NCBI GenBank assembly: GCA_029946065.1
Contig: JAQSDU010000007.1
Span: 1-64,000 of the forward strand
Direction: 5' to 3'
Source: Flavobacterium sp.
Lineage (GTDB): Bacteria > Bacteroidota > Bacteroidia > Flavobacteriales > Flavobacteriaceae
Length of the DNA stretch: 64,000 bases
Positions 4,037 to 47,564 of this stretch are shown in pieces. Below the pieces are notes generated by a model that did not search any database, was not told the origin of the DNA, and worked only from the letters and a program-made list of their open reading frames with translations. A program made the position numbers and the translations under genes. Each line of letters opens with the position of its first letter. Position 1 is the first letter of the stretch.

Positions 4037-4684
4037 ATGGATTTCGATGCATTTCTGGCTTTAGTTCCCAAAATAATTCTGGAAAAACTTCCTGATGCAG
4101 TTTCGCACCAGAAAATGGCGCCGCTGGAACGCATGGAAATCATGAAAAACCTCGATCTCGAAAAAGCCAATCCCAGAAAGGCGGCGGTGATGATGTTGTG
4201 CTACCCGAAAAATAAAAAAACACATCTGGTGCTGATTTTGCGCAATACTTATCCCGGCGTTCATTCCTCGCAAATTGCATTTCCTGGTGGAAAAGTTGAA
4301 GATTTCGATGAAAATTTAGAACAAACAGCCTTGCGTGAAACCCATGAAGAAGTTGGTATTTTACCTTCGCAAATTACTGTTATTCGTGCTTTTTCTGATG
4401 TTTATATTCCGCCGAGCAATTTTCTTGTTTTTCCATATATGGGGTATAGCACAGCAACATTACAATTCATTCCGGATCCGGCAGAAGTTGCAGGCATCAT
4501 TGAATTGCCGCTCGAAAATTTTCTTGATGATGGTATCGTTGTGCTCAACAAGATGGCAACTTCTTATAATTCATCTATTGATGTTCCCGCGTTTAATATC
4601 GATGGACAGATCGTTTGGGGTGCGACAGCAATGATGATGAGCGAACTGAAGGACGTTTTGAAGAAAGTGATCGGTGACGGATAA
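4037..4684 (+). CDS. NUDIX hydrolase, CoA pyrophosphatase type
   Basis: The 215-aa protein carries HSSQIAFPGGK followed by a Nudix box ending ALRETHEEVGI, the combination typical of the UPF0035/CoA pyrophosphatase subfamily (YeaB/NudL, NUDT7/8). These enzymes split CoA or acyl-CoA into phosphopantetheine and 3',5'-ADP using a divalent metal held by the box glutamates. I prefer the ATG at 4037 over the in-frame TTG two codons earlier. It is followed about 150 bp later, in the same direction, by an acyltransferase gene; a functional link through acyl-CoA is possible but not shown. Confidence 0.85.
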   Translation: MDFDAFLALVPKIILEKLPDAVSHQKMAPLERMEIMKNLDLEKANPRKAAVMMLCYPKNKKTHLVLILRNTYPGVHSSQIAFPGGKVEDFDENLEQTALRETHEEVGILPSQITVIRAFSDVYIPPSNFLVFPYMGYSTATLQFIPDPAEVAGIIELPLENFLDDGIVVLNKMATSYNSSIDVPAFNIDGQIVWGATAMMMSELKDVLKKVIGDG

Positions 4685-35097: not shown

Positions 35098-36594
35098 ATG
35101 TCTGATACCATTTCAATCCCCGAAACCGACGTTGTTCTCATTGGTGCCGGTATAATGAGTGCCACTTTGGGTGTCATTCTCAAACAATTACAACCCGATC
35201 TCAAAATAGCAATTTACGAAAGACTCGACCACGCCGCCGCCGAAAGTTCCGATGCTTGGAACAACGCAGGAACGGGGCATTCTGCCTTTTGCGAGCTCAA
35301 TTATACACCACAACTTCCTGATGGTTCTGTTGAAACCGAAAAAGCAGTTAAAATTGCCGAACAATTTGAAGTTTCAAGACAATTGTGGGCCTATCTCGTG
35401 AAACAAAACTTGGTCAGCGATCCGGAGCAGTTCATCCGAAGCATTCCGCATATAAGTTTTGTTTGGGGCGAAGAAAATGTTGATTTCCTTAAGAAAAGAT
35501 ATGAGGCGCTTACACAAAATCCGCTTTTTCGGAAAATGGAATTTAGTACCGATTTCGAGCAACTGCAATCGTGGATGCCATTGGTGATGGAAGGTCGAAA
35601 AGCAGACGAAAAACTAGCCGCAACATTTATGCCTATTGGAACCGACGTGAATTTTGGGGAACTAACCCGCAGTATGTTCAGTCATTTAAAAACGCTTCCG
35701 GACGTTGCTATTTATTTTGATCACGAAGTTAAAAAACTAGAGCAAACTAAAACCGGTGAGTGGGTTATTAAAGTGAAAAATATTGCTTCTGGCGAAAAGA
35801 AAAAAATCAACACTAAATTTGTTTTTATCGGTGCCGGCGGTGGTTCATTGCCATTGTTGGAGAAAGCGCATATTCCGGAAAGTAAAGGTTTTGGCGGATT
35901 TCCCGTAAGTGGGCAATGGTTAAAATGTACGAATCCGGATGTTATCGAAAAGCATTTTGCAAAAGTCTATGGGAAAGCTGCTGTTGGGGCACCGCCAATG
36001 TCTGTTCCGCACATTGATAGCCGAATGATCAATGGCGAAAAAGCGTTACTGTTTGGTCCCTATGCAGGTTTTTCAACAAAATTTCTCAAAAACGGTTCTT
36101 ACCTCGATTTGCCACTTTCGATAAAAACCAATAACGTAATCCCGATGCTTTCTGCGGGTTTTCATAACTTGCCATTGACTAAATATTTGATTGATCAGGT
36201 AATGCAGTCGAATGACGATAGGATGGAAGCTTTACGAGATTATGTGCCTGATGCTGACCCGAAAGATTGGGAATTGGAAACTGCGGGACAGCGCGTTCAG
36301 GTTATTAAAAAAGACGAAAACGGAAAAGGCATCTTAGAATTCGGAACCGAAGTCGTCACCAAAGCTGATGGAACACTTGCGGTTTTATTAGGTGCTTCGC
36401 CAGGCGCTTCAACGGCGGCTTCAATAATGATTGATTTGGTAAGCCGTTGTTTTAAGGGCAAAGCAGAAAGTCCGGAATGGCAGGAAAAACTGAAACAAAT
36501 GGTGCCTTCATACAGTCAAAAATTGAATTCTAAACCGGAATTATTGGAGGAAATAAGAACTTACACAGCGCAAGTTTTGAAATTGGTGAACTAG
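35098..36594 (+). CDS. mqo: Malate:quinone oxidoreductase
   Basis: About 498 aa starting at MSDTISIPETDVVLIGAGIM; the in-frame ATG at 35077 adds seven residues. The FAD dinucleotide-binding motif is VVLIGAGIMSATLG near the N terminus; conserved blocks AAESSDAWNNAGTGHSAFCELNYTP and a C-terminal LGASPGASTAASIM fit Mqo. This peripheral membrane FAD enzyme oxidises malate to oxaloacetate and reduces quinone in the TCA cycle. Single gene. Confidence 0.94.
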   Translation: MSDTISIPETDVVLIGAGIMSATLGVILKQLQPDLKIAIYERLDHAAAESSDAWNNAGTGHSAFCELNYTPQLPDGSVETEKAVKIAEQFEVSRQLWAYLVKQNLVSDPEQFIRSIPHISFVWGEENVDFLKKRYEALTQNPLFRKMEFSTDFEQLQSWMPLVMEGRKADEKLAATFMPIGTDVNFGELTRSMFSHLKTLPDVAIYFDHEVKKLEQTKTGEWVIKVKNIASGEKKKINTKFVFIGAGGGSLPLLEKAHIPESKGFGGFPVSGQWLKCTNPDVIEKHFAKVYGKAAVGAPPMSVPHIDSRMINGEKALLFGPYAGFSTKFLKNGSYLDLPLSIKTNNVIPMLSAGFHNLPLTKYLIDQVMQSNDDRMEALRDYVPDADPKDWELETAGQRVQVIKKDENGKGILEFGTEVVTKADGTLAVLLGASPGASTAASIMIDLVSRCFKGKAESPEWQEKLKQMVPSYSQKLNSKPELLEEIRTYTAQVLKLVN

Positions 36595-36742
36595 GTAATT
36601 AGAAAATTAGAAAATGACTCGATAGTATTCAACGTTTATTGTTTATTTAACAAGCCTAATTGTAATTTTTTCTGTTCGTAAATCAATTATCTAAAATCAT
36701 CAAATTATCTCATTTTCTAATTGTGACATTATCTAATTAACC

Positions 36743-37537
36743 ATGATAAAACTCATCATCGCCGATATGGACGGCACGCTTCTCGATAAAAACAAAAAAG
36801 TAGGCACTGATTTTTGGGCAACAGAAGCTAAGCTACACGAATCCGGGATTTTATTTGCTATTGCCAGCGGCCGTCAGTTTTATAATATTGAAGCGTTGAT
36901 GGATCGTATAAAAGACCGCACGCTTTTTTTGGCTGAAAACGGTACTTATGCTTTTTATAAAGGCAAAGAGATCTTTGTAAAACCGCTGGATAAAGCCGCT
37001 GCGATCGAGTTTATCAAAATTGGGCGTACTATTGAAAATGGGTTTTTAATCGTCTGTGGAAAAAATTCCGCGTACATCGAAAGCACTAATGAGCAATTTA
37101 CTACGGAAGTCCACAAACATTATAATCGCGTTACCGTTGTTGCTGATTTAACGCAAGTAAAAGACGATATTTTGAAATTTACTGTATGCGATTTCAACAA
37201 CGCAGAACGTAACAGTTATAGGTATTTCGAGCAATTCAAAGCCAATTTCAAAGTTGCCGTATCTGGTGATATTTGGCTCGACATCACCGATTTTCATGCG
37301 AACAAAGGCACGGCGATTGTTGAAATTCAAAAACTGCTAGGCATTACTTTTGACGAAACCGTTGTTTTCGGTGATTACCTGAATGATATCGAAATGATGC
37401 AAACAGCAAAATACAATTATGCGATGAAGAATGCACATCCGGAGATTATTAAGATTTCTAGTTTTATTACCGAGTTTGATAATGATAATAATGGGGTTTC
37501 GAGGGCGATTGAGGCATTGGTTTTTGGGGAGAAGTAA
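36743..37537 (+). CDS. Cof-type HAD-IIB family phosphatase
   Basis: The 264-aa protein has HAD motif I DMDGTLLDKNKK (nucleophile D8), motif II AIASGRQF, a C2B cap, and motif III/IV NKGTAIVEIQKLLG and VVFGDYLNDIEMM, then NAHPEIIKISSF. These enzymes dephosphorylate sugar phosphates or related cofactors; substrate is not determinable here. It is followed by a strong terminator, then the CRISPR region. Confidence 0.9.
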   Translation: MIKLIIADMDGTLLDKNKKVGTDFWATEAKLHESGILFAIASGRQFYNIEALMDRIKDRTLFLAENGTYAFYKGKEIFVKPLDKAAAIEFIKIGRTIENGFLIVCGKNSAYIESTNEQFTTEVHKHYNRVTVVADLTQVKDDILKFTVCDFNNAERNSYRYFEQFKANFKVAVSGDIWLDITDFHANKGTAIVEIQKLLGITFDETVVFGDYLNDIEMMQTAKYNYAMKNAHPEIIKISSFITEFDNDNNGVSRAIEALVFGEK

Positions 37538-37560
37538 AAATTCATCTATATTATTCTCGC

Positions 37561-37591
37561 AACCTCTTCATACTTCGAAGAGGTTTTTTTT
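37561..37591 (+). terminator. Rho-independent terminator after the HAD gene
   Basis: AACCTCTTC and GAAGAGGTT form a perfect 9-bp stem with a 6-nt loop and a T run. It isolates the CRISPR region from the gene on its left. Confidence 0.88.
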
Positions 37592-37595
37592 ATAC

Positions 37596-37701
37596 AAAAA
37601 AGTCCCACCGAAGCAGGACTAAAGATTTACATCTACGGCATATAGCCTTATTACAATAAAGTTAATTTGGAATCTAAACTGTAACTACTTACAACAATAT
37701 A
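37596..37701 (-). ncRNA. Candidate natural single-guide RNA (diverged second tracrRNA)
   Basis: Reading leftward, the 3' part is a tracrRNA copy: 39 of 40 nt from AATAAGG through the nexus hairpin GGC-UAUAU-GCC match the tracrRNA at 38008-38100. It ends in an 8-bp terminator stem with a UUCG loop and six T residues. The 5' part differs. Instead of a long anti-repeat it has GUUACA (37685-37680) that pairs with UGUAAU (37655-37650), separated by GUUU on one side and UUAU on the other, then a short AG(a)UU/AACU stem with a 7-nt loop. The real crRNA:tracrRNA duplex has the same 6-bp stem position, the same first G-U wobble and the same GUUU/UUAU internal loop. With a start near 37700 it would carry about 15 nt of guide before GUUACA. 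That it folds as a self-contained guide RNA is inference. A decayed tracrRNA, or a tracrRNA for another array, are alternatives. Confidence 0.6.
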
Positions 37702-37704
37702 TAG

Positions 37705-37734
37705 CAAACATATGCTGTTAATAAGTTTGACAAA
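37705..37734 (-). promoter_or_regulatory. Bacteroidetes-type promoter for the candidate guide RNA
   Basis: On the - strand, TTTG (37734-37731), an 18-bp spacer and TATGTTTG (37712-37705) give a full match to the TTTG / TAnnTTTG consensus. The predicted start is 37700-37702. Confidence 0.65.
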
Positions 37735-37750
37735 AATAAGTAAATGTTTT

Positions 37751-37762
37751 CTACTTACAACA
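37751..37762. promoter_or_regulatory. Putative target site of the built-in guide
   Basis: CTACTTACAACA here repeats 37685-37696 exactly. On the - strand this equals the last 11 nt of the predicted guide plus the first G of the pseudo-repeat. It lies between the -7 box of the + promoter (37774) and its expected -33 region. The 3' flank on the guide-identical strand is GAAAACAT, a possible PAM region. Confidence 0.5.
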
Positions 37763-37773
37763 TAATTTTTATA

Positions 37774-37781
37774 TAAATTTG
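37774..37781 (+). promoter_or_regulatory. -7 box of a + strand promoter toward the small ORF and cas9
   Basis: TAAATTTG is a perfect TAnnTTTG box 22 bp before the ATG at 37803. The -33 element is weak (TTT at 37748-37750). Confidence 0.5.
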
Positions 37782-37802
37782 AATAATTAAAAGATATAAC
37801 TC

Positions 37803-38009
37803 ATGAAAAAGATTAATTTAAAGTTTGAGAATGATTTTTATTATTCTCAATTGACACTGGAGAAATTTGTTTGGTTTCAAAATGATACTGGAGCGATATC
37901 TTTTGATAACAAATATTACTGTGTTGACGAAAATCACTATATAACACAACCCAATTGGGTGATTTGTGAAATCTGTAATTGCATAGTAAAAGGAAAAGAA
38001 ATTGAATAA
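37803..38009 (+). CDS. Small protein of unknown function next to cas9
   Basis: A 68-aa, aromatic-rich protein (MKKINLKFENDFYYSQ at the start, CEICNC near residues 57-62). A TAnnTTTG box lies at the right distance upstream and the initiation region is A-rich, so expression is plausible. It sits between two tracrRNA-like copies that form about 60-bp direct repeats, and its stop codon overlaps the terminator of the - strand tracrRNA. No family is recognised. Position suggests a locus-specific regulator or Cas9 modulator, but a non-coding spacer cannot be excluded. Confidence 0.5.
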   Translation: MKKINLKFENDFYYSQLTLEKFVWFQNDTGAISFDNKYYCVDENHYITQPNWVICEICNCIVKGKEIE

Positions 38010-38100
38010 AAAAGTCCCACGGAGTACGCAGGACTAAAGATTTTCATCTACGGCATATAGCCTTATTGTGATAAGATTAAAGATTAGAAATTTTAATCAG
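38008..38100 (-). ncRNA. tracrRNA of the type II-C system
   Basis: On the - strand, UUUCUAAUCUUUAAUC (38090-38075) is perfectly complementary to bases 11-26 of the CRISPR repeat. After an internal loop (UUAU opposite GUUU), CACAAU (38070-38065) pairs with the first six bases GUUGUG of the repeat with one G-U wobble. The nexus hairpin GGC-UAUAU-GCC and a terminator (AGTCC/GGACT stem, then six T) complete a II-C tracrRNA of about 93 nt. The direction opposes cas9, and the duplex fixes the crRNA strand as +. A TAAATTTG box at 38111-38104 puts the start near 38099. Confidence 0.88.
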
Positions 38101-38103
38101 TAA

Positions 38104-38111
38104 CAAATTTA
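38104..38111 (-). promoter_or_regulatory. -7 box of the tracrRNA promoter
   Basis: TAAATTTG on the - strand matches TAnnTTTG. No good TTTG is found 17-23 bp upstream, so the promoter may be weak or activator-dependent. Confidence 0.55.
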
Positions 38112-38202
38112 ATAAAAAAAAATATGCCATCGATACGGAAAACCGTAAATCAGTTAATTTTTTTCTTTGTAGCTTTCGGATGGTTTAAAAATTTTAGAAG
38201 TT

Positions 38203-41200
38203 ATGGCGAAGATTTTAGGATTGGATTTGGGGACTAATAGCATTGGGTGGGCATTGATTGATGATAAATTAAATACAATTTTAGGCATCGGCAGCAGAAT
38301 ATTTCCAATGGGTGTTGAAAATTTGGGAGATGGTGATAATGAAATGTCAAAGAATGCAAGTCGCACAGGAGCGAGAGGCGTAAGGCGACAATTTTTCAGA
38401 AGAAGATTAAGAAAGAAAATTTTACTTCAGAAACTTTATGAAAATAAAATGTGTCCGATTTATATAAAAGATTTTGAAGATTGGAAACAAACCAAACAAT
38501 TTCCATCTGAAAAATTAGCTGCTTGGTTTGCCATGAATCCCTATGAATTGCGCCATAAAGCATTAACCGAAAAAATATCCTTAGAAGAAATAGGAAGGAT
38601 ATTTTACCATTTAATTCAAAGACGTGGGTTTTTAAGCAATAGCAGAAAAGGAGGAGTCGATGATGGTGCTATTTTTAAAGGAAATGCTAAAGAAGGAAAA
38701 ATCGGAATTGACGATACTTTAGAAAGTATTGAAGGCAAAACTTTGGGCTCCTATTTATATGAAATTTATCCAAAGGACAACCAACCTTTCCAAAATGGTC
38801 TAGAGCGAATCAGAAATAGATATACTACCCGTAAAATGTATATTGACGAATTTGAGTTGATTTGGGACAGACAAGCACAATTTCATGTGGTTTTAAACCA
38901 TGAATTAAAGACGCTTTTTGGAGGAAGAAAACAAGATGATTATAAACAAGACGGCATTTTATTTCACCAACGACCTTTGCGTTCTCAAAAGCATTTGGTG
39001 GGTAATTGCTCATTTGAACCAACAAAAACGAAATGCCCGATAAGTGCTATTCCTGTTGAAATGTTTAGAATTTGGCAATGGGTAAATACGGTTGAATATA
39101 ACGGAAATAAAATTTCCCAAGAAGAAAAAGCAAAGATAATTGAACAGTTGCTGTCATCAGACAAAATTGAATTTAAGAAGTTAAGAAAAGCAATTGGCAA
39201 GGAAAGTGCTGAATTCAAATTTAATTACAAAGACGACGATAGAATTGTTGGAACGCATACAATATCAAATTTATCCAACAAAAAATTCTTTGGTGAAAAA
39301 TGGTTTGAGTTTTCAGAAAAAGAGCAGGAAGATATTTGGCATGTTTTGTATTTTTTTGACAGTAAATCAAATCTTAAAGATTATGCAATTAAAAATTGGA
39401 AATTTTCCGAAGAGCAAGCTATAGCTATTTCAAAATTTAATGTAAAAGATGGTTATGCAAGTTTAAGCAGAAAGGCGATTTTAAACATTTTACCATTTTT
39501 GCAACAAGGATATACCTATGATGTTGCAGTGGTTATGGGTGGCATAAAAAATACTTTTGGCAACAAATGGCAGAATGATTCAACTGAAAACAATCAAAAA
39601 CAATTAGATATAATTGATAATGTTGAAGGTATTATTCGTTCTAAAATTTCAGGCGGATTTATAGATACTATAAAGGATTTATTACGTAGAGAATTTCAGT
39701 ACGATGATAAACAATTAAAGAAACTCTACCATCATTCGGCTACAATTGATTTTGTTCCATTGCTTGATAAATTACCAGTTGGTAAAGAAGCTGATAAAGA
39801 AATCCAGGCTATCAGAAATCCTATTGTAATTACAGCTTTATTTGAATTGCGAAAATTAGTAAATGAATTGATTGAAGAACAAGGGCAACTTGACGAGATA
39901 AAAGTGGAAATGGCACGTGATTTAAAGATATCTAAATCACAGCGCAATAAAATCCGCAGAGATCAAAAACGATTAGAAAGAGAAAACGACAGGGTTAAGG
40001 TTGAAGTGGAAAAATATGCTAGGGTTTCTCACGATAATATTCTAAAATTCAAACTTTGGGAAGAATGCAAGCAAACTTGTCCCTACACAGGTGTTGTAAT
40101 CCCGGTTAGCAAACTCTTTACAGGTGAAGTTCAAATAGAACATATTCATCCGTGGAGTCGTTCTTTAAATGATAGTTTCAACAACAAAACATTGTGTTAT
40201 GCTGATGAAAATAGACGAAAAGGCGATAAAACACCTTTTGAATTTTATGGGAACGATGAGTTGGATTGGACTTCAAGAAAAGAACGCGCATTGAAATTAT
40301 TTTCCGACACCAAAGAATACCCAAACGCATATCAGAAATTCAAACGTTTTGTACAACAAAAATTTGATGATGATTTTTCTTCAAGACAATTAAACGACAC
40401 GCGATTCATAAGCAAAGAAGCCTCGACGTATTTGACGCAAATTTGCAAAAAGGTAAATGTTTCACCCGGTCAAATGACAGCCAACTTGCGCCAAAAATGG
40501 GGCTTGAATACTGTTTTGAATGATGAAAATGCAAAAACACGTGAAGACCATCGGCATCACGCTATTGATGCTTTGGTTATGGCTTGTGGTAAAACAAAAT
40601 ATTTGCAAGAACTATCAAAATGGAATCGTTACAGTAGAAACTACGATTTAAAAGATTTCCCTATGCCTTGGGAAACGTTCAGATTTGATGCCGAAAAAGC
40701 GGTAGATAAAATATTGATTTCTCACAAGCGTATTTCTAATGACATAACCGTTAGGTATACAAAAGTTGAAAAAAACGGGAAAATGTATGTAAACAAAGGT
40801 ATTGCTGCAAGAGGGCAATTGCATAAAGAAACTGTTTTTGGAAAACGAAATTTTAATGGCGAAGAAGCATTTCACGTTAGGAAAGCAATTGATAGTTTAA
40901 CAACCGAAAAACAATTAGAAAAAGTGGTTGATGAAACTATTAAAAAATTGATTTTTAAGAGAATTCAGGAATTGGGCGGATTTGTAAAAGGAACTATTCC
41001 CGCAAATACTTTTTTTATCGTTGATGAAAATGGAGTGAAACAACCACAAATTTTCTTACCCAATAAAAACGGTTCGCTGGTTCCGATTTTAAAAATCCGG
41101 ATGAAGGAAAATTTTAGTGGCGCAGAAAAACTGAAGGATAATATCAATCAATGGGTAAACCCACGAAATAATCACCACGTATTGATTTATAAAGATGAAA

Positions 41201-41577
41201 AAGGGAATTTAAAAGAAGAAGTTGTTAGTTTTTGGACAGTTGTAGAGCGAAAAAGTAAAGGATTTCCAATGTATCAATTACCAGCAGATGGAAAAGAAAT
41301 AGTTACAACTTTACATATTAATGATATGTTTTTATTAGGACTAAACGAAGATGGAACCAATTGGGAAAATCCAGATTATGAGGTTTTAAAGGAGCAATTG
41401 TTCAGAGTGCAGAAACTTACTTCTGGAGATTATTTTTTCAGGAAGCATAAATCATCTACTGTTACAGATGAAGATTATAAGCAAATTCGAGGTTTTGGAG
41501 AAGGTAAAACAGGATGGTTTACGTTTAATCCAATCAAAGTAAAAATTTCAGTCTCAGGAAAAATTTCGAAAATGTAA
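38203..41577 (+). CDS. cas9: CRISPR-associated endonuclease Cas9, type II-C
   Basis: The 1124-aa protein has RuvC-I ILGLDLGTNSIGWALI with D8, an arginine-rich bridge helix (RTGARGVRRQFFRRRLRKK, about 50-68), RuvC-II IKVEMARDL with E569, HNH motif QIEHIHPWSRS with H647 and N670, and RuvC-III REDHRHHAIDALVMAC with H786 and D789. All catalytic residues are present, so it should cut both strands of DNA. Length and absence of csn2 or cas4 place it in subtype II-C. The tracrRNA is on the opposite strand directly upstream; a ParDE-like pair and the array follow. Expression may start at its own weak promoter or from the promoter at 37774. Confidence 0.96.
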   Translation: MAKILGLDLGTNSIGWALIDDKLNTILGIGSRIFPMGVENLGDGDNEMSKNASRTGARGVRRQFFRRRLRKKILLQKLYENKMCPIYIKDFEDWKQTKQFPSEKLAAWFAMNPYELRHKALTEKISLEEIGRIFYHLIQRRGFLSNSRKGGVDDGAIFKGNAKEGKIGIDDTLESIEGKTLGSYLYEIYPKDNQPFQNGLERIRNRYTTRKMYIDEFELIWDRQAQFHVVLNHELKTLFGGRKQDDYKQDGILFHQRPLRSQKHLVGNCSFEPTKTKCPISAIPVEMFRIWQWVNTVEYNGNKISQEEKAKIIEQLLSSDKIEFKKLRKAIGKESAEFKFNYKDDDRIVGTHTISNLSNKKFFGEKWFEFSEKEQEDIWHVLYFFDSKSNLKDYAIKNWKFSEEQAIAISKFNVKDGYASLSRKAILNILPFLQQGYTYDVAVVMGGIKNTFGNKWQNDSTENNQKQLDIIDNVEGIIRSKISGGFIDTIKDLLRREFQYDDKQLKKLYHHSATIDFVPLLDKLPVGKEADKEIQAIRNPIVITALFELRKLVNELIEEQGQLDEIKVEMARDLKISKSQRNKIRRDQKRLERENDRVKVEVEKYARVSHDNILKFKLWEECKQTCPYTGVVIPVSKLFTGEVQIEHIHPWSRSLNDSFNNKTLCYADENRRKGDKTPFEFYGNDELDWTSRKERALKLFSDTKEYPNAYQKFKRFVQQKFDDDFSSRQLNDTRFISKEASTYLTQICKKVNVSPGQMTANLRQKWGLNTVLNDENAKTREDHRHHAIDALVMACGKTKYLQELSKWNRYSRNYDLKDFPMPWETFRFDAEKAVDKILISHKRISNDITVRYTKVEKNGKMYVNKGIAARGQLHKETVFGKRNFNGEEAFHVRKAIDSLTTEKQLEKVVDETIKKLIFKRIQELGGFVKGTIPANTFFIVDENGVKQPQIFLPNKNGSLVPILKIRMKENFSGAEKLKDNINQWVNPRNNHHVLIYKDEKGNLKEEVVSFWTVVERKSKGFPMYQLPADGKEIVTTLHINDMFLLGLNEDGTNWENPDYEVLKEQLFRVQKLTSGDYFFRKHKSSTVTDEDYKQIRGFGEGKTGWFTFNPIKVKISVSGKISKM

Positions 41578-41592
41578 TTTCTTATCAGGATT

Positions 41593-41612
41593 TTGGTGTA
41601 AATTTACACCAA
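41593..41612. promoter_or_regulatory. 20-bp palindromic operator before the toxin-antitoxin genes
   Basis: TTGGTGTAAA is followed directly by its complement TTTACACCAA. It lies 14 bp before the antitoxin start and 16 bp after the cas9 stop, as expected for an autoregulated ribbon-helix-helix antitoxin. Confidence 0.75.
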
Positions 41613-41625
41613 TTAAAAATAATAA

Positions 41626-41868
41626 ATGATGGCCAGACTAAGTATTTCATTAGCCAATCAAAACGATGAATGGCTAAAACAGCAAGTAATCAATGAAGAA
41701 TTCACTAGCAAAAGTGAAGCGGTTAATTATTTAATCAAGCAAGCTCGTGAACGCGACGCATATCATGAATATGTACAAATGAAAATTGACAGAGGTTTGA
41801 AAAGTGGTTTTAGCACCAAAACCAAAGAAGAACTTTTGGAAGAAATCAAAAGTAGATTGAATGTATAG
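41626..41868 (+). CDS. ParD-like ribbon-helix-helix antitoxin
   Basis: An 80-aa protein (or 79 from the second ATG, MARLSISL). The N terminus ARLSISLANQNDEWLKQQV and the FTSKSEAVNYLIKQARE segment are the ribbon-helix-helix of ParD/CopG antitoxins; the C-terminal part (KTKEELLEEIKSRLNV) would wrap the toxin. It overlaps the toxin gene by 8 bp, a normal TA arrangement, and is preceded by a perfect palindromic operator. Its place between cas9 and the array is unusual. Confidence 0.88.
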   Translation: MMARLSISLANQNDEWLKQQVINEEFTSKSEAVNYLIKQARERDAYHEYVQMKIDRGLKSGFSTKTKEELLEEIKSRLNV

Positions 41869-42136
41869 GTATCATTTATCTTTTGAAGCAGAGGAAGATA
41901 TTGTAAGAATTTTTGAATTTGGGTTCGGGAGATTTGGTTTACAACAAGCTAATAAATATTATGATATGATGTATGACTGTTTTGACAAAATTGCTTCCAA
42001 TCCATTTATGTTTCCAATTGTATCAAATTATAAAAATGCAGATCGATATTGTGTTTGTGGAGTTGATACTATTTATTACAATATCAAAGTTGACGAAATA
42101 GAAATCATCACAATCATTGGAAGGCAAGATTTTTAA
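41861..42136 (+). CDS. RelE/ParE superfamily toxin
   Basis: This 91-aa protein has the ParE pattern: YHLSFEAEEDIVRIFEFGFGRFG, then QANKYYDMMYDCFDKIASNPFMFP, and a C-terminal YCVCGVDTIYYNIKVDEIEIITIIGRQDF. The final IxxIxGRQD block is characteristic of ParE, whose members mostly poison DNA gyrase. It is translated with an 8-bp overlap from the antitoxin gene. Only 72 bp separate its stop from the first CRISPR repeat, on the same strand. Confidence 0.88.
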   Translation: MYRYHLSFEAEEDIVRIFEFGFGRFGLQQANKYYDMMYDCFDKIASNPFMFPIVSNYKNADRYCVCGVDTIYYNIKVDEIEIITIIGRQDF

Positions 42137-42208
42137 AGTTCTTTGACATAAAGTTTTCATTGTCTTAAACAGCCAAACCACAACGGAGTTTCGGCGAAAG
42201 CTCACTCG
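42137..42208 (+). promoter_or_regulatory. CRISPR leader with inverted half-repeat
   Basis: This 72-bp stretch is the leader by orientation. It contains CAAACCACAAC (42174-42184), the exact reverse complement of the first 11 bases of the repeat starting at 42209, with a small inner hairpin (TTTC-GGC-GAAA) between. No clear TAnnTTTG promoter was found here. Confidence 0.55.
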
Positions 42209-43827
42209 GTTGTGGTTTGATTAAAGATTAGAAAACACGATATTTGCTTCCTTTCGGTTGCTTGCGATCAGCGAGTTGTGGTTTGATTAAAGATTAGAAA
42301 ACACGATATTAGAAACGAGTTCATCACGATGGACAGATATGTTGTGGTTTGATTAAAGATTAGAAAACACGATATTATTCAGTATCAAATTTACAATATG
42401 TTAACGGTTGTGGTTTGATTAAAGATTAGAAAACACGATATTAGTTTTATTGACGCCGACACATTCTTTACTGTTGTGGTTTGATTAAAGATTAGAAAAC
42501 ACGATATTTACAGCAACAAATAGATGAGAACGCAAAAGGTTGTGGTTTGATTAAAGATTAGAAAACACGATATTTTTGCAGCCAAATCAAAACCACCAAT
42601 TCCCGTTGTGGTTTGATTAAAGATTAGAAAACACGATATTCTTGATGAATGTTGCCAATAAGCCCTTGAAGTTGTGGTTTGATTAAAGATTAGAAAACAC
42701 GATATTGGAAAATGTGTTATCTTTGGCTCGTAGAACGTTGTGGTTTGATTAAAGATTAGAAAACACGATATTCAATGTGATGTGCACCTATTTCCTCGGT
42801 AAGTTGTGGTTTGATTAAAGATTAGAAAACACGATATTACCTGTTTTGGTCTTTGCTTCCACAGCCATGTTGTGGTTTGATTAAAGATTAGAAAACACGA
42901 TATTCTCTGTAGTTGAAAGAATGAAATCCTTTAAGTTGTGGTTTGATTAAAGATTAGAAAACACGATATTTTTGACAGCAACGATCAGAAAGTTAGAATC
43001 GTTGTGGTTTGATTAAAGATTAGAAAACACGATATTAGGACTTAAAAGGGTTGCGACCGCCGAAACGTTGTGGTTTGATTAAAGATTAGAAAACACGATA
43101 TTTAAGGAGTTGAATGCCCTTTTAAACGATGCGTTGTGGTTTGATTAAAGATTAGAAAACACGATATTAAAAAGCGCGCCGCAAGTGCTTAATTCAATGT
43201 TGTGGTTTGATTAAAGATTAGAAAACACGATATTGGACGACCCGACCAGCTTGTACAATGCGTTGTTGTGGTTTGATTAAAGATTAGAAAACACGATATT
43301 AAGGGTATGCGTTACGAAGAACCGCTTACCGTTGTGGTTTGATTAAAGATTAGAAAACACGATATTCCGGAAAAATCCCTTCATTTGACTTTCGACGTTG
43401 TGGTTTGATTAAAGATTAGAAAACACGATATTCTTGATCGTTTTCTTTTGCGAGGCCGAAAAGTTGTGGTTTGATTAAAGATTAGAAAACACGATATTTA
43501 CGTGAATGCAAATAACGGAACACTTACCGTTGTGGTTTGATTAAAGATTAGAAAACACGATATTCCGACTTTTACGTACATATCCCGATTGCCTGTTGTG
43601 GTTTGATTAAAGATTAGAAAACACGATATTAAGGAAAAGCAAGAATTAGGCGGCCGCCTCGTTGTGGTTTGATTAAAGATTAGAAAACACGATATTGCGT
43701 TATCGGCGGCGTTCCACAAACGGCCGGTTGTGGTTTGATTAAAGATTAGAAAACACGATATTAGCTTGACGCGGCCAAAGACCTGATCGAAGTTGTGGTT
43801 TGATTAAAGATTAGAAAACACGATATT
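42209..43827 (+). CRISPR. Type II-C CRISPR array, 25 repeats and 24 spacers
   Basis: The 36-bp repeat begins GTTGTGGTTTGATTAAAG and ends AACACGATATT, and all copies read as identical, including both ends. Starts fall every 66 bp from 42209 to 43727, with the last at 43792. Spacers are 30 nt except the last (29 nt). Pairing with the tracrRNA shows that crRNAs are read on the + strand. No terminal repeat degeneracy is seen, suggesting an active or recently expanded array. No spacer was seen to match elsewhere in this window by eye. Confidence 0.98.
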
Positions 43828-43880
43828 AGCGCCGATGTTATCGGCTGATATCAAACAACTTAAAGCTTAATATTGTAAAT

Positions 43881-43927
43881 AAAAATGCCTCTTTACAGTA
43901 CTGATAACACTGTCTTGAGGCATTTTT
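43881..43927. terminator. Bidirectional terminator between array and cas2
   Basis: AAAAATGCCTC and GAGGCATTTTT form an 11-bp stem with an inner ACAG/CTGT stem, so it has U runs in both directions. It would end both the pre-crRNA and the convergent cas1-cas2 transcript. Confidence 0.85.
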
Positions 43928-43932
43928 GTGTT

Positions 43933-44262
43933 TCAAAATAACTCCAATTGCGTTGGCTGCGGCGCTTTTGGGACTTCCGCCTTGCCCCAAAAATTCAAAA
44001 TATTTCCAAATTGTTTGTCGGTTATTCGCAGCACGCTAACTTTTCCCATCGGCGGCAATAACCGATGGATACGCTTTTCATGTACATCTGCACTTTCGCC
44101 GCTGGCGCAATGCCGTACATAAACGGAGAATTGCATCATACTAAAGCCGTCCTTTAAAAGGTTTTTCCTAAAACCGGATGCATTCATTCGGTCTTTTTTA
44201 GTTTCAGTCGGCAAATCAAAGAATACAAATAACCACATAATCCGGTAGCCGTTCAGGTCCAT
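43933..44262 (-). CDS. cas2: CRISPR-associated endoribonuclease/adaptor Cas2
   Basis: The 109-aa protein has the Cas2 ferredoxin-like core: YRIMWLFVFFDLPTETKKDR with the conserved Asp after the first strand, FSMMQFSVYVRHCASGE and GKVSVLRITDKQFGNI. Cas2 dimers bridge Cas1 dimers in the spacer-integration complex. The gene overlaps cas1 by 10 bp and is downstream of it on the - strand, converging on the array. Confidence 0.94.
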   Translation of the reverse strand: MDLNGYRIMWLFVFFDLPTETKKDRMNASGFRKNLLKDGFSMMQFSVYVRHCASGESADVHEKRIHRLLPPMGKVSVLRITDKQFGNILNFWGKAEVPKAPQPTQLELF

Positions 44263-45137
44263 AATTTAGGATATTTTATTTTTTTTCGTTCGCCCGTATA
44301 GCATTGCTGCAATGAACTCGCCGTTTTTTGCAGCGCTACCATCAAGGGACTTTTTTCATCCTTAAAATAAACCGTTCGGGTAAGAATATTCAAAAGTTCT
44401 GCCTTGAGCACCGTATTCAGCTCTTGCTCATCATATTGCTGCATAATTTCATATACCTTCTCATCAACAATTGGCCTGAAAGGCTCCATAATATCATCCG
44501 CCAAAGCGAAAGCATTATACTTACTTTTGTGATGAATACCCAATGTATTCAACAATCCGCTACCCGAAAGTGCCCTTGCCGTTGCAGCACGCAATATGGC
44601 ATAACCGTAATTCAGGAAATTATTGGGATAGTTGCCGTAGCGCTCTCTTTTAAAATCAATCTCAAAAAAAGCTTTCCAATACTGACTTGCTGCAACACCT
44701 TCCATATTGGTAGTGTCGCCGCTTAAAACTTTACCCGCCAAAAATTCAAACTGATTTTTTTTACCCGTTATTTTTTCAAGCAAAATACCTTGGTTCCTGA
44801 TTTTTTCAATAATGGTGAACTGCCACAATTGTTTTTTTAGAGGAAGACTGGCCTCAATTTGATTCCGAAAAATCTCTTGCTGTATGTGATGGCTATTGAG
44901 ATTTAAGAACATACCGTTCGGTAAATGATTATTACTGCAAACAATCAATGCCGTATTGTTTTCAATAAGTAAATTCATAGCAGGAACGCTGATGTAAATT
45001 TCGATATTATCAATGACCAAAAATCCAATATCCTCAATCGGGATTGTACTTTCTTTTAAATCGGTTTTGATGACCAGTTGTAGATTTTTGACGCTGACCG
45101 ATGCCTTGTTTTCTAGAAGTAAGGTTTTTTTTAGCAT
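44253..45137 (-). CDS. cas1: CRISPR-associated integrase Cas1
   Basis: The 294-aa protein is of normal size for type II Cas1. The N-terminal beta domain (IPIEDIGFLVIDN) is followed by the helical catalytic domain with NYGYAILRAATARALSGSGLL, GIHHKSKYNAFALADDIMEPFRP (metal-binding His and Asp/Glu residues). It integrates new spacers at the leader end of the array. It is the first gene of a - strand cas1-cas2 pair, facing cas9 and the array, whereas most type II loci have all cas genes in one direction. Confidence 0.95.
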   Translation of the reverse strand: MLKKTLLLENKASVSVKNLQLVIKTDLKESTIPIEDIGFLVIDNIEIYISVPAMNLLIENNTALIVCSNNHLPNGMFLNLNSHHIQQEIFRNQIEASLPLKKQLWQFTIIEKIRNQGILLEKITGKKNQFEFLAGKVLSGDTTNMEGVAASQYWKAFFEIDFKRERYGNYPNNFLNYGYAILRAATARALSGSGLLNTLGIHHKSKYNAFALADDIMEPFRPIVDEKVYEIMQQYDEQELNTVLKAELLNILTRTVYFKDEKSPLMVALQKTASSLQQCYTGERKKIKYPKLWT

Positions 45138-45146
45138 AAGTAGGGT

Positions 45147-45174
45147 GAATAGTTGCTTAAACTATTCAAATATA
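45147..45174 (-). promoter_or_regulatory. cas1-cas2 promoter with overlapping inverted repeat
   Basis: TATATTTG on the - strand (45174-45167) matches TAnnTTTG. Directly downstream, GAATAGTT (45147-45154) and AACTATTC (45160-45167) form a perfect 8-bp inverted repeat that covers the predicted start site, 9 bp before the cas1 ATG. It may be an operator for adaptation control. Confidence 0.5.
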
Positions 45175-45320
45175 GCTACTTATAATTAAAAGCTGTACGG
45201 GAAACCATATTGGGTTTAGAGAAATTCCAAATACCAATATCATCCTAATAAACTGGCGCTTCGGAAAAGGAAATAAATATCATCGCTTCGTGATTTATGC
45301 CATCTTCAACCTGCCATCTG

Positions 45321-47564
45321 TTATCTGCCATCTGCCAACGTCACATCAATCCGTTTCGTAGCCTTCAAAATCCCTTCCGAAAGATTGATCAACCAAACTA
45401 GTTGCTCAATAATCAACTGTGCTTCCTGCATTTTTAATTGGAATTCTAATTCGTCTATCGTATTGTTGGCGCGTAATTCGCGGGCACGGAGGTTTTTTAA
45501 TTCGATGAAACGCAATTCTAGGTTTTCTTTCTTTTCAGCAATTAGTGCATCATTTTCGGTGTCATCTAATATCGCTATCGCCTGGTTTAGATTTCGGATA
45601 ACCGTATTGACTACTACGTTAAACGCTTCCGAAGCTTTCGTTGTATGGTGTGTTTGCACATAAGTGCCCAATGATGCCGACGCCGACAGCAAAGTGTGGT
45701 TGAGTTCTACGAGTTTATACAACTGTTGCAATTGTTTCTGCTTTGATTTTGGCTCTTGTGTCATGCGTTGGAAGGACGCCATTAAATTCCCTAATTCGAT
45801 GAAGGCATTTTTTCTGGAAACGCGATACGAAGGCGTTACTTCTCCTTTTGCGTTGTAAAAAAGCGAAATCTCGTTGAGGTAATTGCGGTTCGCTTCAATC
45901 GATTTTTTGATATAAAGCGGCAGGCTGATAAATTCCCACGAGGGCCATAAAAAGTAGTTCGCTGTAAAAGCCAACATGCCGCCAACAAGCGTATCTATAA
46001 TTCTATACTCCACAACCTGGCTGCTATTTGGCATCAATAAACCGTAAATCAAAATGACGTACATTGTGACAAATGTAGCACCGACTTTATAATTAATTTG
46101 TGTGAATGCGAATCCCATCAACATTGAAAAAATCGCCAATGCACCAATTACAACGTGATTGGAGATAAAAGTGAGCATTAAAAAACCAATAATGCCGCCA
46201 GCGACTGTACCGATAATCCTGTGGTAGGAACGTTGTTTCGTAAGTCCGTAACCCGGCCGCATGATGACAATAATCGTTAGCAAAATCCAATATGAATTCT
46301 GGAAGAGCAGCAAATTTCCCAAAGTAAAACCAATCAGAATTGTAATCGTTAATCGAAGCGAATGCCTAAAAAAAGCCGATGAAAAACTAATATTCTCCCG
46401 AAAAGTCTGCCACGGATAGTATTGGGGTGCAACGAGTTTTTCGAGGTCACGATCGCGGTCTTTGAATTTGATTTCCTTGTTGGACGTAAATGCACGTTCA
46501 ATAACCATGATTTTTTCGATTTGTTTTTCGGCATAATGCACCATGTTTGTTAGCATTAATACGCCTTCTGAGGCGGCTGCCTTTCCTAATATTTCTTGGT
46601 ATTCGCCGATGACGATAATTAACGCTTCCAAATCTGAATTCAGGGAATGAACAGAAATATATTTTTTTCCTTTTTCTAAACTTTTAGAGATTTTTTTCAG
46701 TGTCGCCGCAAGGTTATAAGCGAGATTTTGATAGGTTTTGAGTACATTAGGATGCGCTTCGAATTTTTCGTGTAATTTATTATGATCAAAAGAAGTAGAA
46801 AGGGCCAATTCAAGTATTTCCACTAAAGAAATAAACACAAGCAACATCTTCCGGTTTTCATTTGAACTGCCTGAATTGGTGCGGTTGCGTATCAGAATTT
46901 CACGTAAATTTTCATGAATGATATTAATGTCAACCTGTAGGTGCAACTGATTTTCGATGATTTTCGCTTTATCGGCATCGATATTCCATAAATCGCCGCG
47001 AAATTTCATGTATTTAGACGTCAGTCTTATAGCTTCGGAAATTTGTAAAGTGACATACCTATAAGGTCTCAGAATGTCGAACAGTAATGAAATCAGCAAA
47101 TAAAACAATCCGCCAAGCAGCATCAATCCTGAATGTTCCAGCATTTCTGCTCCGGAATGAATATGCGCAAACGCCAGGCAAACCGACAATAATCCTGAAA
47201 ACGAGACCATCGTCGCGCGTTGCCCATACACTGAAATCATCGCCAGGAAAAACACAATCAGCCCCAAAATAGGATATTGCAGAAAAGTAAAAGGATAAAT
47301 AAGGTTCATCAGCAGATTAAAACCTGCTACCATAAAAGCGGCAACTAAAACGCCTTTTATCTTGTGTTTTAAATTGCTCGGAATATCGCTTGGATAGGTC
47401 AGCAATGCGCCGATAGCAATGGTAAATCCAAGCTGAAACTGGTCTAGTGCGGAGCAAACTAAAACCGGAATCACTGCCGCTAATGTCACTTTGAGCGCAT
47501 TGGAAAAATTAGTGCTGTCGGTAAAGTGCCTGACTTTTGCAATCATATTTTCGGCTTTAAACAA
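45321..47564 (-). CDS. FUSC family inner membrane protein (YccS/YhfK-like)
   Basis: The 747-aa protein has two membrane blocks of five or six helices each (about 20-170 and 405-545), each followed by a soluble helical domain, the internal duplication typical of FUSC (fusaric acid resistance/aromatic carboxylic acid efflux) proteins. The YccS-like region includes ILLTIIVIMRPGYGLTKQRSYHRIIGTVAGG, a strongly conserved motif. It probably acts as an efflux or transport component; partner genes (HlyD-like adaptor) are absent here. A second ATG six codons in is equally possible as start. Confidence 0.83.
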   Translation of the reverse strand: MFKAENMIAKVRHFTDSTNFSNALKVTLAAVIPVLVCSALDQFQLGFTIAIGALLTYPSDIPSNLKHKIKGVLVAAFMVAGFNLLMNLIYPFTFLQYPILGLIVFFLAMISVYGQRATMVSFSGLLSVCLAFAHIHSGAEMLEHSGLMLLGGLFYLLISLLFDILRPYRYVTLQISEAIRLTSKYMKFRGDLWNIDADKAKIIENQLHLQVDINIIHENLREILIRNRTNSGSSNENRKMLLVFISLVEILELALSTSFDHNKLHEKFEAHPNVLKTYQNLAYNLAATLKKISKSLEKGKKYISVHSLNSDLEALIIVIGEYQEILGKAAASEGVLMLTNMVHYAEKQIEKIMVIERAFTSNKEIKFKDRDRDLEKLVAPQYYPWQTFRENISFSSAFFRHSLRLTITILIGFTLGNLLLFQNSYWILLTIIVIMRPGYGLTKQRSYHRIIGTVAGGIIGFLMLTFISNHVVIGALAIFSMLMGFAFTQINYKVGATFVTMYVILIYGLLMPNSSQVVEYRIIDTLVGGMLAFTANYFLWPSWEFISLPLYIKKSIEANRNYLNEISLFYNAKGEVTPSYRVSRKNAFIELGNLMASFQRMTQEPKSKQKQLQQLYKLVELNHTLLSASASLGTYVQTHHTTKASEAFNVVVNTVIRNLNQAIAILDDTENDALIAEKKENLELRFIELKNLRARELRANNTIDELEFQLKMQEAQLIIEQLVWLINLSEGILKATKRIDVTLADGR

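Follow-up and report, generated by a model that had tools for sequence, protein, structure and literature searches.

We describe a window of 64,000 nucleotides (nt) of DNA from Flavobacterium sp. (contig JAQSDU010000007.1, positions 1 to 64,000; all coordinates refer to this whole stretch unless another locus is named), whose type II-C-like CRISPR-Cas locus carries, on the minus strand, a second element resembling the trans-activating CRISPR RNA (tracrRNA). This element is probably a natural type II-C single-guide RNA that leads Cas9 to an 11-nt site and represses the adjacent, divergently oriented small gene. Comparison of sequences supports this interpretation through the identity of guide and target, the uniqueness of this match in the genome, a flank that fits a phage-derived protospacer adjacent motif (PAM), the recurrence of this geometry in another genus, and covariation of both the guide-target pair and the stem of the RNA. 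The covariation (compensatory in the stem), the PAM and the unique target also lend good support to an original prediction, made from the letters of this DNA, that a natural single-guide RNA exists in this type II-C locus. The RNA architecture is predicted by folding, and we infer transcription, loading into Cas9, binding without cleavage, and repression. In the proposed mechanism, the RNA would load Cas9 as a ready-made single guide, and Cas9 would be guided to the 11-nt site. This site is 66 bp away and falls in the small gene's promoter region; there Cas9 would bind, leave the DNA uncut and keep the small gene off, and perhaps the guide RNA itself too. Binding without cleavage is proposed because only 11 nt pair, as has been reported for tracr-L, a single RNA of Streptococcus pyogenes to which we return below.

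Predicted structure of the guide RNA and its putative target

The predicted transcript of the single-guide RNA gene occupies 37596..37700 on the minus strand. From AATAAGG to GTCCTGC, 39 of 40 nt are the same as in the tracrRNA, as the original prediction had reported, and the two copies share an ungapped 53-nt repeat with 89% identity (37613-37665 against 38028-38080). The element is a separate second copy, 415 bp from the tracrRNA copy, and not an isoform of the tracrRNA gene; the nexus word, with up to three mismatches allowed, has exactly two occurrences in the genome. Its 11-nt guide TGTTGTAAGTA (37686..37696) lies immediately 5' of a stem formed by GUUACA (37685-37680) and UGUAAU (37655-37650), which, together with its closing loop (37650..37685), replaces the anti-repeat. 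The nexus hairpin GGC-UAUAU-GCC (37637..37647) follows, identical to that of the tracrRNA and of the second cassette described below, and the RNA ends in an intrinsic terminator with a C(UUCG)G loop and then a T run (37601..37620), recovered by a terminator scan that found three terminators in 37560-38260 against 0.3 in shuffles. Both the self-pairing stem and this terminator had been recognized originally, and both were confirmed. Bacteroidota promoters follow the consensus TTG-N17-23-TAnnTTTG, and a script placed a predicted promoter of the guide RNA at 37705..37738, with a TTG ending at 37731, a spacing of 18 nt, and TATGTTTG at 37712-37705. Sequence and folding thus unite all parts of a single guide in one RNA: the guide itself, a stem like a repeat:anti-repeat duplex, the nexus and the terminator.

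Folding of 37685-37596 gives an architecture of stem, nexus, small hairpin and terminator at -22.1 kcal/mol, with a z score of -2.63 and 3 of 200 shuffles equally good. For the 106 nt of the element as originally delimited (37701-37596), the z score is only -1.74 (14 of 200 shuffles equally good). The internal loop GUUU/UUAU that had been described next to the stem is present in the letters of the window, but RNAfold lengthens the 6-bp stem by a G-U and a U-A pair, so that the predicted loop is reduced to UU/UU. When the array repeat was aligned to the element's strand across 37401-38250, the best score was a weak 21, elsewhere than in the element, against 38 for the anti-repeat; hence no repeat-like part that would pair with the tracrRNA, as expected of a small CRISPR-Cas-associated RNA (scaRNA), was found in the element. 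An Rfam search of 36500-46000 returned two matches only, both far below the gathering score.

If the stem mimics the duplex between CRISPR RNA (crRNA) and tracrRNA, then the letters directly 5' of it would be the guide. These 11 nt have one other exact copy within the 64 kb, which the original prediction had missed: it lies on the same strand, 66 bp upstream (37762-37752), and constitutes the putative target site TGTTGTAAGTA (37752..37762). Extended by the next G, the resulting 12-mer has no third occurrence in the genome of 3.83 Mb, and with one mismatch allowed there is no further site in the 64 kb (0.19 expected). In dinucleotide shuffling of the 506 nt around the locus, with both strands considered, an exact 11-nt copy arose by chance in 13 of 20000 trials. 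The target has the guide RNA on one side and the divergent small gene on the other, with 40 nt separating it from the ATG of that gene; it adjoins a predicted -7 box, TAAATTTG (37774..37781, plus strand), so placed by the same consensus. Cas9 on the target would extend over the -33/-7 region of the small gene. The start of cas9 is 441 bp from the target, beyond the tracrRNA, and no cas promoter is targeted. On its PAM side, the target ends about 10 bp upstream of the -33 element that belongs to the guide RNA, and therefore some self-repression is possible.

The predicted PAM GAAAACAT (37744..37751, minus strand) agrees with NARWACAT at all 8 positions. This motif is what the flanks of two protospacers share, both found in phages through spacers of related Cas9 loci. 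At L022, whose Cas9 is 85% identical to that of the window in the best segment, one spacer matches 64 Flavobacterium phage records over 30 of 30 nt, with the flank AAGAACAT taken from two of the 64; at L004 (Cas9 88% identical), one spacer matches phage FL-1 over 28 of 30 nt, with the flank CAATACAT. The letters that follow the guide within the RNA gene itself, GTTACAGT, do not match NARWACAT, so the RNA gene would not target itself. Among the nine arrays compared with phages (window, L031, L021, L014, L022, L004, L003, L024 and L013), only L022 and L004 gave matches that fit a spacer. Two weaker phage matches (H1 and H22) were dropped, as their imperfect 46- and 62-base alignments do not fit one spacer, and four single-spacer scans of viral contigs gave no match.

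A second cassette and its distribution

The CRISPR locus of Confluentibacter citreus (L024) contains a second element 380 nt from its tracrRNA nexus. An exact copy of its 11-nt guide, TGTAATGAGTA, occurs once elsewhere in the locus, 75 nt upstream (4605-4595 of that locus, minus strand); such a copy arose in 11 of 20000 local shuffles. When the two cassettes are aligned, target, promoter, guide, nexus and terminator are in register, and the tail and terminator are intact. The guides differ between the species at three positions and the targets differ at the same three, with guide and target remaining equal within each species. The stem of the second element, GUCGUG/CAUGAU, differs from that of the window on both sides in three of its six pairs and on one side in one, and all six still pair; the other helices do not vary between the two. 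The target is 37 nt before the ATG of a small gene, beside a -7-like box that is one letter off (TTAATTTG, 4608-4615), so that in both genera the target overlaps the predicted promoter of a small gene. A conserved small protein gene holds the target-side position in both loci, the guide copy ends at most 1 nt from the start of the RNA stem in both, and in each it is exactly 11 nt on the 5' side.

Several observations weigh against this interpretation. Only two cassettes are known, the PAM is based on only two protospacers, and the flank of the C. citreus target, GAATATTT, fits it at only 6 of 8 positions. By a cruder measure, copies of at least 11 nt lie no more than 200 nt upstream at 73 of 123598 window positions outside the array. 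Among 82 ordinary tracrRNAs, four reach a nearby copy of at least 11 nt of the letters before the anti-repeat, two of them (L052 and L083) as contig-end artefacts, one (L066) within CRISPR-repeat-like sequence, and one (L068) with a word of A and T only. With two sequences only, the covariation of the stem was reached in 60 of 500 shuffles, and for this reason we place the main weight on the identity of guide and target in both cassettes. The internal loop in C. citreus is AGUU/UUCC, not GUUU/UUAU, with a predicted 3-nt bulge; of the two features whose preservation in homologous loci had been proposed as a check, the 6-bp stem is thus kept through compensation, but the loop is not, and the predicted fold differs. 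In a different, larger Cas9 from Flavobacterium psychrophilum, a UUU bulge of the crRNA is reported to be essential (PMC12609912), which is consistent with the GUUU that the window element retains but not with the loop of C. citreus. Finally, the family of the small C. citreus protein is also found away from CRISPR, with distant relatives in genomes G544, G638, G596 and G485.

The cassette is rare. A Cas9 search produced 36 loci, 32 of which, L024 among them, show the nexus, and nexus matches occur in 87 of 398 genomes of the genus, 31 of 397 of the family and 18 of 296 of the order, or 130 different genomes, with at least one place examined in each (place G765:C33 was left out) and some matches representing chance or diverged tracrRNAs. 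A guide RNA of this kind is present in 2 of these 130 genomes, that of the window and G704, whose cassette sequence equals L024. A scan for a 6-bp stem at 165 distinct nexus-like places in 198 loci was positive in seven loci, but an 11-nt guide copy upstream accompanies the stem in just two of them, the window and L024. The other five (L025, L028, L074, L109 and L150) have copies of only 5-6 nt and were rejected as guide RNAs. No second copy was seen in L003 and L005, whose Cas9 proteins are closer to that of the window (89-90% identity), which indicates a patchy distribution. Neither the nexus word nor either small-protein family gave a match in viral contigs.

Other departures from the usual tracrRNA layout were encountered in these searches. 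In L025 and L028, the tracrRNA begins with GTTGTG directly after a -7-like box; these letters could pair with the RNA's own CACAAU and leave no room for a guide. Second tracr-like copies in G204, G139, G239 and L017 are not guide RNAs of this kind: the copy in G204 lies 716 nt downstream of the first (L069, 4115 and 4831, plus strand) and has a slightly mutated anti-repeat, G139 and G239 have second tracr-like loci, and L017 (4830-4690, minus strand) has a tandem duplicate of the tracrRNA tail that has decayed, with palindromic insertions in its nexus and no recognizable promoter or anti-repeat. A tracrRNA tail lacking an anti-repeat, with no canonical tracrRNA in the 3 kb examined, occurs at L189 in G369 (about 1474, minus strand).

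The small genes and the surrounding locus

The predicted repressed gene, or cargo, of the window (37803..38009, plus strand) is an open frame of 68 amino acids (aa). Its six homologues, one of them named Flavobacterium sp., are 65-66 aa long and share 53-58% identity in the aligned part; 26 columns, C40, C55, C58 and C60 among them, are invariant. Among 397 genomes of the genus, no other genome has this protein above a chance match (the weak match in G135, with E 8e-4, 22 positions and an internal stop, was judged to be chance), and no match was found in plasmids or phages. The small protein of C. citreus has 64 aa, a hydrophobic N-terminus and five homologues besides its own record; from their sequences, we read the two cargo proteins as unrelated to each other. 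Neither has a Pfam match above the cut-off, searches of Pfam, PADLOC and PHROGs returned nothing usable for either, and no toxin family was recovered. AlphaFold gave an unusable model of the 68-aa protein (pLDDT, the predicted local distance difference test, 49.1) and three helices with low to moderate confidence (67.6) for the C. citreus protein.

Four of the five homologues of the C. citreus protein (P0006-P0009) end in KKVPPKQD, which is the antisense reading of the tracr terminator in this tracr family, and these genes would therefore abut a tracr-type terminator too. The distant relatives in G596, G638, G544 and G485 (L146-L150) are dispersed membrane proteins of about 60 aa with a single helix. 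Read from the open frames, with no family search made, their neighbours appear to be isoleucyl-tRNA synthetase and RadA in G596 and recombinases in G638. In the 6-13 kb examined in these four genomes, array-like repeats were absent and no match to cas9, cas1 or cas2 had an E value better than 3. The C. citreus cargo thus belongs to a wider family of small membrane proteins, whose presence alone does not imply a link to CRISPR.

The gene set of the window locus comprises cas9 (38203..41577, plus strand; 1124 aa, with HNH_4 and RuvC_III in Pfam and Cas9 models in PADLOC), an array of 25 repeats and 24 spacers (42209..43827), and cas2 (43933-44262) and cas1 (44253-45137), both on the minus strand, recognized by Pfam and together spanning 43933..45137; assignment to type II-C is a reading of this gene set, as the PADLOC models do not separate the subtype. 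From right to left between cas9 and a gene for a HAD hydrolase (36743-37537), the left-hand neighbour of the element, are the tracrRNA (minus strand), the 68-aa frame (plus) and the element (minus). The ordinary tracrRNA, with an anti-repeat to the array repeat, is predicted at 38010..38100 on the minus strand. Its terminator (38035-38013) has a longer loop of the GTACTCC type; since the guide RNA and most of the relatives compared have UUCG, it is the tracrRNA copy, not the guide RNA, that has departed in the window. Between cas9 and the array, a two-gene unit (41626-42136, plus strand) pairs an 80-aa frame with a ParE-like toxin of 91 aa (PF05016, E 1e-5) and is an ordinary toxin-antitoxin pair within the CRISPR locus.

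Alternative explanations and relation to known systems

The self-repression noted above could be the whole function, with the RNA tuning its own promoter or the CRISPR locus as an analogue of tracr-L and the small gene a bystander. The PAM side of the target is near enough to the guide RNA's own -33 element to suggest this, and tracr-L is reported to be an autoregulator with an 11-nt match (PMC11417352). We nevertheless regard this explanation as unlikely, because the target is well removed from the start of cas9 and in both genera overlaps the predicted promoter of a small gene that is itself conserved in position. The two copies might also be operators of a DNA-binding regulator, with the match at the guide position a coincidence: paired operators are common in divergent promoters and could co-evolve too. 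This is less likely still: in both genera the copy stops within 1 nt of the stem and is exactly 11 nt long on its 5' side, and the flank of one copy agrees with the PAM while that of the other does not.

Duplicates of tracr sequences do occur, as the second copies in G204 and L017 attest, and the element could be such a duplicate decaying without function. The copy in L017 illustrates decay, with its interrupted nexus and no recognizable promoter or anti-repeat, whereas the promoter-like boxes, guide, stem, nexus and terminator of the window are intact and covary with those of C. citreus, which makes this explanation very improbable. A sponge or partner RNA, competing with the tracrRNA for Cas9 or pairing with other RNAs and targeting no DNA, would account for the retained Cas9-binding tail, but it leaves the guide-target covariation and the PAM unexplained, and we give it the least credence of all. 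The reading that we prefer remains a single-guide RNA that represses the neighbouring small gene.

In the type II-A system of S. pyogenes, tracr-L unites crRNA and tracrRNA in one RNA, and an 11-nt match with a PAM at the cas promoter suffices for repression by Cas9, full pairing being unneeded (PMC11417352). The window element likewise has all guide parts in one RNA and an 11-nt match with a PAM-like flank at a promoter, but it is a separate type II-C gene, and what it would target is the promoter region of a small gene in divergent orientation. Autoregulation of Cas9 in the manner of tracr-L, the function originally suggested, is accordingly not what the position of the target indicates, and CreTA and CrePA are closer functional analogues. 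In CreTA of type I systems, a guide-like RNA with partial complementarity directs the effector to a neighbouring small gene's promoter (PMC12737573, PMC9458426), as the RNAs of the window and C. citreus would do; CreTA uses Cascade and a crRNA-like RNA to control a toxin RNA, whereas the present locus has Cas9, Cas1 and Cas2, a tracr- or sgRNA-like RNA, and a small protein-coding gene. CrePA, also of type I, controls a protein toxin, and its logic of sensing Cas inhibition would fit here (PMC12737573); CreP is described there as typically having a KilA-N domain, whereas neither small protein has a Pfam match above the cut-off. CreR RNAs of types I and V-A are also guide-like and direct the effector to a promoter at their own locus (PMC12737573), but what they repress is the cas genes, whereas no cas promoter is the target here. 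The scaRNA of Francisella novicida (type II-B) is a non-array RNA through which Cas9 represses a chromosomal gene by a partial match (PMC9458426); it is reported to have a degenerate repeat and to need tracrRNA as its partner (PMC9458426, PMC6199352), whereas the window element combines guide and tracr tail in a single RNA and has its target next to it. A Cas9-based module of this kind was not found by title or abstract in the open-licence literature searched, a scope outside which most subscription papers and preprints fall.

Beyond repression, we propose that, as in CreTA and CrePA, the repressed genes are cargo whose release would signal that Cas9 has been lost or inhibited. The cargo proteins appear to differ between the genera while the device of RNA and target is conserved. 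By analogy, the cassette may, rather tentatively, be a module that guards Cas9: the small protein would be harmful or would raise an alarm, and the loss of Cas9, or its block by a phage anti-CRISPR protein, would release the protein and stop or kill the cell. Such a module would be a type II counterpart of CreTA and CrePA with exchangeable cargo, a Cys-rich protein here and a membrane peptide in Confluentibacter. If our interpretation is true, then a dedicated single-guide RNA gene, apart from the tracrRNA, makes type II-C Cas9 a non-cutting repressor of a neighbouring gene, and constitutes a compact natural design for CRISPR interference (CRISPRi) in Bacteroidota. Because guide and target have changed together between the two genera, a direct and inexpensive test of this interpretation is at hand. 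If the guard function is also true, then CRISPR-controlled guard modules, described for type I, would extend to Cas9, anti-Cas9 proteins would be predicted to trigger a response, and the loss or block of Cas9 may come at a cost to the cell.
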